Translations under genes and position numbers: made by a program
Notes under the pieces: model-generated
The model's input: the letters and a program-made list of their open reading frames with translations, nothing else
The model's database searches: none
Told to the model about the DNA's origin: nothing
Shown: one piece after another, positions 12,703-16,097 of the stretch
Layout: the number at the start of each line of letters is the position of its first letter
How positions within the stretch are numbered: the first letter of the stretch is position 1
From: Phycisphaerae bacterium
Lineage (GTDB): Bacteria; Planctomycetota; Phycisphaerae; Phycisphaerales; UBA1924
Length of the DNA stretch: 64,000 nt
Direction: 5' to 3'
Assembly (NCBI GenBank): GCA_016873295.1
Contig: VGXM01000005.1
Location: forward strand, 1-64,000

Positions 12703-12775
12703 GGGCAGATAGCTCAATTGGTAGAGCACGGCACTGAAAATGCCGGGGTTGCCGGTTCAAGTCCGGCTCTGCCCA
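12703..12775 (+). tRNA. tRNA-Phe (GAA)
   Basis: A full cloverleaf can be drawn. The acceptor stem GGGCAGA pairs with TCTGCCC and the discriminator is A. The anticodon stem CGGCA/TGCCG encloses the loop CTGAAAA, giving anticodon GAA. The T-arm contains GTTCAAGTC. CCA is not encoded. A decayed integrase tail and a KAP-LRR gene follow directly, so this tRNA is a likely integration site for a mobile element. Confidence 0.96.
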
Positions 12776-12779
12776 CTGG

Positions 12780-13045
12780 CCCGCTTTGCGCCGCTTCGCG
12801 CTTGCCCGCGTCGGGTCGCAACACCCCGGCAAAGCAAGGGCTTCCCGACGATTCCCGCGAACGCCCGCGATCCGGCGCGGACGGATGCCGCGCCGCACCT
12901 TGCGCCGCAAGTGCGCCGCTCTTTGCGCCGCTTTCTTCACTTCCTTCGACGCCGCCGTGGCGCGGGTCCCATCGGCGTCGGTGACGTGCAGATAGTGCCC
13001 CGCCGCGATCGCCTTTTCGCCCCGCGTGTTGACCCAGCGGGCCAT
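12780..13045 (-). pseudogene. Decayed 3' end of a tyrosine recombinase/integrase
   Basis: On the minus strand, 13045 downward reads ARWVNTRGEKAIAAGHYLHV followed by TDADG. This resembles the conserved end of planctomycete tyrosine integrases around the catalytic Tyr (of the type AAxHYLQVTDAD). About 50 bases on, the typical tail continues in another frame (EGSEESGAKSGALAAQ), so there is at least one frameshift. The upstream catalytic His-x-x-Arg box was not found, so most of the gene is gone. Its 3' end points into the 3' end of tRNA-Phe, as for integrases at tRNA attachment sites. The call rests on short similarity recalled from the family and is tentative. Confidence 0.4.
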
Positions 13046-13448: not shown

Positions 13449-16097
13449 ATGTCCGCCGCTTCAGAGCCCCCGGCACCGACCGAACGCGAGTTGGCCTTGC
13501 GTGCGCCGGTCATGACGATCTTGTCGGACCACCCGATCCTGCGCGATCAGGCGGATGAGAAGACCGGCTCCGCCCGCGAGGGCGACTCCTTCGAGCTGCA
13601 CACGCGCCTCGGAGCGGTCTACGACATCATCCGCCACCAGAACACCCGCGCCCCGCTGGCCATCGGCATCTTCGGCGACTGGGGCACGGGCAAGAGCTCG
13701 GCGATGCGCTGGCTCGCCGACCAGCTCAAGGTCTGGAGCGATCAGGGGGACACGTGCAAGCCGCACTTCCGCACCCGCTGCGTCTGGTTCGAGCCGTGGA
13801 AGTACCAGACCCGCGACGACGTCTGGCGGGGCCTCATCGCCGAGGTCGTGATCAACTCCATCGACCCCTCGAAGGCCTCGGTCGCCACGGTGGTCAACGC
13901 CGTGAAGAAGTTCGGCGGCGCGCTGGGACGCTGGTTCATCCACACGGTCTCGTCGCTCCAGCTCTCGGGGGGCGTGCCGGGCGTGGGCGAGGCCAGCGTG
14001 AATCTCGAAGCCCTCGCCAAGATCGCCGAGGACTACAAGCAGAGCACGCACCCAGAAAGGGCCTTCCTCAACGAGTTCGAGAGCACGCTCAAGTCCTGGG
14101 TGAAGGGCTCGCTCGGCGGCGACGAGCGGATGGTCCTCCTGATTGACGACCTGGACCGCTGCCTGCCCGCCGTCGTGCTCGAGGTGCTCGAGGCCCTCAA
14201 GCTCTACCTGAACATCCCGCAACTGGTCTTCGTCATCGGCCTCGACCGCGACGTGGTCAAGGCCGTGATCCGCAAGCAGTACAGGGACGCCGGGCTCGCC
14301 GAGGTCAAGGCCGACAGCTACCTCGACAAGATGTTCCAGGTCGAGGTCGAGGTGCCCCCCAGCGAGGAGCAGATGGACGGGTACTTCGAGGCCCAGGTGA
14401 AAGAACTCGACAAGGCCACGAACAACTTCTGGACCGGCCGACTCAACGCGGGCGGCACGGGCTGGAAGGGCATCATCGAGGGGGCGATCAGGAAGATCGC
14501 CGAGCACAACCCGCGCGAGGTGAAGCGCCTCCTCAACAGCACGCTCATGGGCGGCACGGCGGCGGTCCGCAAGGCCGCAGGCGATCAAGACGCCGCCAAG
14601 CGCTTCGGGCAGGGGTGCCAGGCCTACCTCATCGCCCGCGCTCTGCGCGACATGGACGGCAACCCGGCGGCGACGCTGCGCCTCAAGGAGACGTGGACCT
14701 TCCTAAAGAAGTGGTCGGAGTTCAGAGAGGTCTACAAGGACTACCGCCCGGACCGCGCCCTCGCGCCCGATTCCAAGGTGCCGGGCGAGCGCGGGCCGGA
14801 GAAGGACGATCCGCAGCGGAAGAGCGCCGAGGAAGAGGTGCGCCGGCTCATGCCCTGCACGCGCGACATCAAGCGCGAGCCCTTCCCGCTCTGGGACATG
14901 TCGATCCTGTGGGACCTTTTGGCGATCGAGTGCTCCCCCGAGGTCGGGCAGGCCGTGGCCAGCCGGGCGGCGGAGGCCAAGGCGGAGCCGGCCCCACCGC
15001 CTCCGGGCATCGCGCCCGCGAGCGCCCCCGCGCCCAGCGGCGGTGGAACCGCGGCGGACGCCGGGGCGGACGCGGTGAATCGGCTGCCGCTGATCGTCCG
15101 CAGCCGCGTGGCCAAGCACCTCGGCAAGGACGCCAAGGCCCTCACGCCCAGCGACCTCGCATCGGTTACGGCGTTGGACCTGTCTGGCTCCGACATCAAA
15201 GACGAAGGACTTCGTGAACTCGCCCGTGCGGAGACCGGCCTCAAGGCCCTGACCACGCTGATCCTCTTTAACACGAAGGTGACGGACGCGGGGGTGAAGA
15301 AACTCGCCCGGGTGGAGACCGGCCTCAAGGCCCTGACCACGCTGGACCTCGGCGCCACGAAGGTGACGGACGCGGGGGTGAAGGAACTCGCCCGCGCGGA
15401 GACCGGTCTCAAGGCCCTGACCGCGCTGTACCTGCACGACACGCAGGTGACGGACGAGGGGGTGAAGGAACTCGCCCGCGAGGGGAGGGGTCTCAAGGCC
15501 TTGACCACGCTGGACCTCGCCTTCACGCAGGTGACGGACGAGGGGGTGAAGGAACTCGCCCGGGCGGACACCGGCCTCAAGGCCCTGACCACGCTGATTC
15601 TCTGGAACACGCAGGTGACGGACGCGGGGGTGAAGGAACTCGCCCGGGCGGAGACCGGCCTCAAGGCCCTGACCACGCTGGACCTTTGGAATACGAAGGT
15701 GACGGACGCGGGGGTGAAGGAACTCGCCCGCGCGGAGACCGGCCTCAAGGCCCTGACCACGCTGGACCTCGCCGGGACGCAGGTGACGGACGCGGGGGTG
15801 AAGGAACTCGCCCGGGCGGAGACCGGCCTCAAGGCCCTTACCACGCTGAACCTCGCCGGCACGAAGGTGACGGACGCGGGGGTGAAAGAACTCGCCCGCG
15901 CGGAGACCGGCCTCAAGGCCCTGACCACGCTGAACCTCGCCGCGACGCAGGTGACGGACGCGGGGGTGAAGGAACTCGCCCGCGCGGAGACCGGCCTCAA
16001 GGCCCTGACCACGCTGAACTTCGGCGGCACGCGGGTGACGGACGCGGGGATGGCGGCGGTCAAGGCCCGGTGGCCGGGGATCACGGTCATCCGCTAA
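13449..16097 (+). CDS. KAP family P-loop NTPase fused to leucine-rich repeats
   Basis: The 882-residue protein has three parts. Residues ~40-450 form a KAP NTPase domain with Walker A FGDWGTGKSS (76-84) and Walker B MVLLIDDLDRCLP (~228-240). The family-typical WFEPWKYQ lies between them, and IPQLVFVIGLDRDVV follows. Residues ~515-570 are an Ala/Pro-rich linker. From ~575 to the end there are leucine-rich repeats of exactly 28 residues (TDAGVKELARAETGLKALTT). KAP NTPases include phage-exclusion proteins such as PifA, and an NTPase followed by LRRs has the layout of NLR-like immune sensors. No clear transmembrane segments interrupt the NTPase domain. A defence or sensing role is inferred from architecture and from the tRNA/integrase context. 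ATG 13449 is chosen because the domain begins soon after; an in-frame start at 13389 adds only low-complexity residues. Confidence 0.9.
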   Translation: MSAASEPPAPTERELALRAPVMTILSDHPILRDQADEKTGSAREGDSFELHTRLGAVYDIIRHQNTRAPLAIGIFGDWGTGKSSAMRWLADQLKVWSDQGDTCKPHFRTRCVWFEPWKYQTRDDVWRGLIAEVVINSIDPSKASVATVVNAVKKFGGALGRWFIHTVSSLQLSGGVPGVGEASVNLEALAKIAEDYKQSTHPERAFLNEFESTLKSWVKGSLGGDERMVLLIDDLDRCLPAVVLEVLEALKLYLNIPQLVFVIGLDRDVVKAVIRKQYRDAGLAEVKADSYLDKMFQVEVEVPPSEEQMDGYFEAQVKELDKATNNFWTGRLNAGGTGWKGIIEGAIRKIAEHNPREVKRLLNSTLMGGTAAVRKAAGDQDAAKRFGQGCQAYLIARALRDMDGNPAATLRLKETWTFLKKWSEFREVYKDYRPDRALAPDSKVPGERGPEKDDPQRKSAEEEVRRLMPCTRDIKREPFPLWDMSILWDLLAIECSPEVGQAVASRAAEAKAEPAPPPPGIAPASAPAPSGGGTAADAGADAVNRLPLIVRSRVAKHLGKDAKALTPSDLASVTALDLSGSDIKDEGLRELARAETGLKALTTLILFNTKVTDAGVKKLARVETGLKALTTLDLGATKVTDAGVKELARAETGLKALTALYLHDTQVTDEGVKELAREGRGLKALTTLDLAFTQVTDEGVKELARADTGLKALTTLILWNTQVTDAGVKELARAETGLKALTTLDLWNTKVTDAGVKELARAETGLKALTTLDLAGTQVTDAGVKELARAETGLKALTTLNLAGTKVTDAGVKELARAETGLKALTTLNLAATQVTDAGVKELARAETGLKALTTLNFGGTRVTDAGMAAVKARWPGITVIR
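15195..16034 (+). repeat. Ten tandem 84-bp units encoding leucine-rich repeats
   Basis: Ten in-register units of 84 bases each encode a 28-residue repeat. The scaffold codons are almost identical from unit to unit, including third positions. Differences concentrate in the six codons at the LxLxxT strand. In order these read ILFNTK, DLGATK, YLHDTQ, DLAFTQ, ILWNTQ, DLWNTK, DLAGTQ, NLAGTK, NLAATQ and NFGGTR. This suggests recent expansion or gene conversion with diversity kept at the concave face. Confidence 0.93.

Follow-up and report, generated by a model that had tools for sequence, protein, structure and literature searches.

A KAP NTPase fused to a leucine-rich repeat array beside tRNA-Phe in a Phycisphaerae bacterium: a rare protein family with an NLR-like plan

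Does a bacterial gene that joins a KAP NTPase to an array of leucine-rich repeats (LRRs), beside a tRNA gene and the remains of an integrase, encode an immune receptor? The question is raised by a stretch of 64,000 nucleotides from a Phycisphaerae bacterium (contig VGXM01000005.1, positions 1 to 64,000), hereafter the window. A first-pass annotation had described there an intact KAP P-loop module followed by a regular LRR array, and had proposed a single-gene defence or sensing system on the plan of the NLR immune receptors. The coordinates of the features are collected in Table 1.

Table 1. Features of the tRNA-Phe and KAP-LRR region (window coordinates)
Feature	Position	Strand	Basis
tRNA-Phe (gaa), where a former element probably integrated	12703..12776	+	ARAGORN; same arrangement in G024
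Tyrosine recombinase C-terminal remnant (AIAAGHYLHVTDADGTRA), remainder of gene lost	12890..13045	-	match to L067 integrase
KAP-LRR gene	13449..16097	+	882 aa; ATG 13449 to stop 16097; family alignment
KAP NTPase domain	13614..14540	+	Pfam; residues invariant in 27 aligned heads; head model
Helical region and hinge with family motif LWxLMxIPFSxEVA, then low-complexity linker	14541..15152	+	family alignment; pLDDT <50 at residues 509-534
LRR array: N-cap, ten 28-aa units, C-cap	15156..16094	+	repeat analysis; modelled beta/alpha horseshoe
Nine internal near-identical units; codons 8, 10 and 11 of the unit, on the concave face, hypervariable	15240..15995	+	unit comparison

The gene is an unbroken open reading frame of 882 codons. 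Pfam KAP_NTPase (PF07693) covers residues 56-364 of the product (E 5e-32; score 111.7 bits, cutoff 20) and its C-terminal third matches LRR_6 (E 6e-37) and LRR_4 (E 8e-25), with no other convincing Pfam domain in the protein. Tandem Repeats Finder reports an 84-bp period in 9.9 copies (15216-16049), so that the array is far beyond chance. Both the module and the array of the first-pass annotation are thereby borne out. The KAP domain carries a Walker A motif GDWGTGKSS (K82), a Walker B motif with LLIDDLDRC (D233/D234) and the motif NPREVKR (R356). The catalytic residues are invariant across 27 aligned KAP heads, and in the family alignments Walker A, Walker B with DDLDR and the NPR-type C-terminal motif are invariant or nearly so. 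By its Pfam match and motifs the protein is assigned to the KAP NTPase family. The genome, of 3.1 Mb and 95% complete, yielded no other KAP domain.

KAP NTPases often, but not always, have transmembrane segments within the NTPase domain, and the absence of such segments from the window protein (highest 19-residue hydropathy 1.51) is therefore not decisive for family membership. The N-terminus, inspected by eye, does not have the look of a signal peptide, and the protein is cytosolic-looking. The first-pass annotation had recognised no effector domain, and we find none at the N-terminus either: the ~55 residues that precede the KAP domain have no Pfam match and are mostly modelled with low confidence.

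The full-length structure model has a mean pLDDT of 80.8, mostly above 90 in the LRR, and a pTM of 0.51, which leaves the relative placement of the domains unsure. Its top Foldseek matches are NLRP3 and NOD2. The full-length superpositions have an rmsd of 12-25, versus ~3 when the LRR is superposed on ribonuclease inhibitor; thus it is the LRR that drives the match to NLRP3 and NOD2. The head modelled alone (pLDDT 82.9, pTM 0.80) has as its nearest solved fold RdrA of the RADAR system (Z 17.5 over 354 residues, rmsd 5.3), followed by Orc/Cdc6 (Z 14.7) and the plant NLR resistosomes (~12).

Like NLRP3, NOD2 and the plant resistosomes, the window protein has an NTPase head followed by an LRR horseshoe, i.e. 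C-terminal superstructure-forming repeats after the NTPase, and a variable recognition surface. Unlike them, its P-loop is of the KAP clade and not STAND, and it has no N-terminal effector. At E <= 1 the window protein has no Pfam match to NACHT, NB-ARC or any other STAND signature, and its homologue P0005 has sub-cutoff STAND-type hits only. Since the STAND signature was sought and not found, the window protein is not an NLR: the order of domains claimed at first stands, membership of STAND does not. KAP-LRR proteins are NLR-like by analogy of plan and are not descended from the animal or plant receptors.

Known or candidate defence proteins of the KAP family share the head and differ in the rest. 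The best PADLOC matches of the window protein are QatA, PDC-S20 and PifA, all of which cover the head only and none of which reaches the LRR. For QatA the score is 123.1 bits against an equivalog cutoff of 600; where a Qat locus would have QatB, QatC and QatD, the window gene is flanked by a helicase and a dihydroorotate dehydrogenase. Tmn, a phage-defence system with the same type of head, has two transmembrane domains (PMC11846954) that are absent here. RdrA, the nearest fold, also joins a KAP/AAA+-type ATPase to a C-terminal non-ATPase part, but this part is a helical lobe and RdrA has a deaminase partner, RdrB, on which its heptamer docks (PMC9994260); the window protein has an LRR array, and no partner is apparent. 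The NCBIfam RdrA equivalog does not match the window protein (P0001) and gives its relative P0003 21.8 against a cutoff of 600, and no recurrent family appears among the neighbours listed for 22 homologue loci. Judged by score or by feature, the window protein is none of QatA, RdrA or Tmn. We found no earlier description of KAP-LRR proteins in the literature searched, which missed most subscription papers.

To compare the repeats we aligned the units of the array. The nine internal units share a mean DNA identity of 88%, and 60 of the 84 nucleotide columns are invariant. Half of the non-synonymous codon differences between pairs of units (88/176) fall in codons 8, 10 and 11, i.e. in 3 codons of 28, and a further 20/176 in codon 13. 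The usual LRR convention places these codons at exposed sites of the strand motif LxLxxT, on the concave face; the modelled strands span unit positions 6-8. At the xxLxLxx positions of the window array pN/pS is 2.9, versus 0.36 elsewhere (column bootstrap 0.026, permutation 0.001), a ratio between paralogous repeats and as such an approximation only, calculated on 84-bp repeats whose short-read assembly may be wrong in detail. When the two end units are included the concave ratio drops to 1.7. Within the family, concave pN/pS exceeds 1 in nine of the nine arrays with reasonably recent units (sign test p = 0.004) and does not in four older, saturated arrays.

This pattern might be taken as proof of immunity, an argument that we reject because LRR proteins of relatives that have no KAP domain behave in the same way: in two of them, at L055 538-2136 and L062 988-2070, the repeat units differ chiefly at concave codons, and the concave pN/pS of the two ranges from 1.5 to 2.15. 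Concave variation thus points to a surface that binds and is not by itself a sign of immunity. It is consistent with ligand binding, as a property general to such arrays and not specific to this family. One of these two control proteins has a lipoprotein-like start.

A few hypervariable binding-face codons within near-identical repeats are also found in fungal HET-D and HET-E (PMC12222747, PMC4986451). There the repeats are WD40 and the NTPase is NACHT, whereas here an LRR is joined to a KAP head. Another likeness is with the KAP or STAND antigen sensors of multicellular bacteria that are diversified by diversity-generating retroelements (DGRs), KAP NTPases having been reported with such a sensor (PMC10907252), but these sensors are C-type-lectin folds mutated by a retroelement. 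DGR diversification of the array was rejected: the one reverse transcriptase match found in the genome is to DRT4/6 and not to a DGR enzyme, and no second copy of the LRR array was found, negatives that at 95% completeness are not absolute. The reverse transcriptase itself, a protein of 561 aa encoded outside the window (G000:C8:19219-19650; L025 1123-2808), matches the DRT4/DRT6 models at E 4e-150, and the genome thus has at least one recognisable anti-phage reverse transcriptase.

The KAP-LRR architecture was then sought in other genomes, as the first-pass annotation had advised for the planctomycetes. A single-sequence search of genome contigs returned nothing, and a search of GTDB genome contigs with a KAP-head profile built from the first four heads succeeded, with 27 loci that are mostly KAP-LRR fusions. 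These amount to ~20 distinct KAP-LRR proteins, the window protein included. Most hosts are Planctomycetota; the others are Verrucomicrobiota, Desulfobacterales and an older ‘Deltaproteobacteria’ bin, Caenarcanales and Alphaproteobacteria, with one truncated head in Hydrogenedentes, single phylum assignments being treated with care because many of these relatives lie on MAG contigs. Most members share in the alignment an N-terminal PPxMTxLSDxP motif, the KAP core, the hinge, the LRR N-cap and the C-cap. Of 397 genomes of the class, 9 (~2%) carry a close relative, and within one genus the gene is present in 1 of 6 listed genomes. No close relative was found in IMG/VR, and phage and plasmid collections gave only distant KAPs, with at most ~31% identity among the matches listed. 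KAP-LRR is a rare, patchily spread family, with the distribution of an accessory gene.

In the tree of heads, KAP-LRR heads cluster with a support of 97/98, apart from four outgroups that lack an LRR; the window head falls, with five others from planctomycetes, in a group supported at 97/99. The head of the LRR-less protein P0004 nests inside the KAP-LRR group. In this close relative (L014 781-2703, minus strand) a C-terminal domain of ~160 residues replaces the LRR; it matches no Pfam model, and a PDB sequence search gave nothing convincing for it. On the same tree the LRR type changes between 22-aa and 24/28-aa units at least 5 times, and the arrays also vary in length among relatives. The heads evolve under purifying selection (pN/pS ~0.3 in the closest pairs) and the LRR diverges faster: in the closest set identity is 39-58% for the LRR versus 71-79% for the KAP core.

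We then considered the surroundings of the gene. The KAP-LRR gene starts ~0.7 kb from tRNA-Phe and is flanked upstream by a helicase and downstream by a dihydroorotate dehydrogenase, which confirms its position alone between housekeeping genes; a phosphoesterase-like ORF, seen by eye, also lies upstream. The adjacent tRNA and integrase remnant are confirmed as well, although the latter is tiny: a stump of ~50 aa on the minus strand, between tRNA-Phe and the KAP-LRR gene. The stump itself has no HMM match. Over ~42 aa it shares 59% identity with the C-terminal end of an intact 436-aa tyrosine integrase (phrog_1 integrase, E 6e-33) of a genome of the same family (L067 157-1467; G024:C160), whose 3' end overlaps tRNA-Phe. 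This overlap indicates that tRNA-Phe is an integration site in the family of the host; the L067 contig holds too little sequence past the integrase to show cargo. On these matches the region is read as starting at an old integration site whose element has degraded. A search of the window for a second att copy, in the form of a repeated tRNA 3' end, gave none. In relatives where both were placed, tRNA-Phe and pyrD are not adjacent, and with no conserved tRNA-Phe/pyrD neighbourhood there is no clean empty site.

The expectation that homologues would be enriched in defence islands was not upheld. Of the 127 neighbours listed for 22 homologues most are housekeeping genes; no partner family recurs, and the commonest families at these loci do not include an integrase. 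PADLOC matched 60 models on these neighbours, versus 5 on 127 control genes from arbitrary regions. However, the likely sources, traced for part of the 60 models, are one Ser/Thr kinase (33 models), one ATPase (7) and one DinG-like helicase (7). Because most of the models are redundant on single proteins, and because there is no recurrent partner, enrichment is not claimed. Equally, homologues do not share one conserved housekeeping context, which would have spoken against defence: their surroundings differ. At one locus (L045 1285-1656) an ORF resembling a RelE/HigB toxin by eye, without a PADLOC match, lies ~0.8 kb upstream of the KAP-LRR gene.

What, then, does the protein do? In conflict systems a KAP domain can stand in for the STAND NTPase (PMC8195603), and sensors diversified by DGRs have been reported together with KAP heads (PMC10907252). 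Together with what is published on RdrA and Tmn, this makes defence the likeliest role, to which we give about an even chance: KAP-LRR would be a cytosolic single-gene sensor-ATPase of the biological-conflict type, probably directed against phages or mobile elements. The concave face of the LRR would bind a protein of the invader, or a host protein that has been altered. This would release the KAP head to bind ATP and to assemble a ring like that of RdrA. The assembled ring would halt growth or infection directly, or recruit a host protein, these two outputs being proposed because neither an effector domain nor a partner gene is present.

KAP NTPases occur outside defence too, e.g. Kidins220, for which a role in organising complexes has been proposed in eukaryotes. 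KAP-LRR might likewise be a non-immune signalling or regulatory switch in which the LRR binds a host protein or part of the cell envelope, with the KAP head as organiser of a complex. This alternative, which we judge unlikely though well worth weighing, agrees with the housekeeping neighbours outside any defence island, and with the LRR proteins of the same order, possibly of the envelope, that show the same repeat evolution. But the neighbours are not conserved, the gene is absent from ~98% of the genomes of the class and from most congeners, and sensor arrays are swapped, all of which is more to be expected of an accessory gene of conflict than of a regulator. In its variability the concave surface is like recognition surfaces of any kind, and diversified sensors of multicellular bacteria have been proposed to see varied antigens (PMC10907252). 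The trigger could thus be non-self other than phage, e.g. other mobile elements, or proteins that competitors or predators inject, and the output an arrest of the cell; this is not separable from phage sensing by sequence, and we consider it improbable.

The integrase stump and tRNA-Phe within 0.7 kb, and the separation of tRNA-Phe from pyrD in relatives, would also suit a cargo gene that served the former element, by superinfection exclusion or stabilisation, and was stranded when the integrase was lost. Given that no other cargo and no att repeat were found, and that the commonest neighbour families of the 22 other loci do not include an integrase, we hold this to be quite improbable. A decaying or functionless gene, as its decayed neighbour might suggest, is scarcely credible in view of the intact reading frame, the presence of all catalytic residues and the purifying selection on the heads of relatives.

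For the sensor-ATPase of conflict type a more specific proposal may be made, which we regard as possible but rather doubtful: that KAP-LRR proteins are bacterial immune receptors in which the NLR plan was reached independently, from a RADAR-like KAP ATPase, and whose specificity would be renewed by duplication of near-identical LRR units and by selection on three or four concave codons, as an LRR counterpart of fungal HET-E. If this is right, the receptor plan of an NTPase with an LRR arose at least one more time, from a different ATPase clade, and in the form of one gene, small enough for direct testing. The repeat array would then be a testable map of the residues that contact the trigger. 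And as the family lies outside defence islands, searches by guilt-by-association would miss KAP-LRR.
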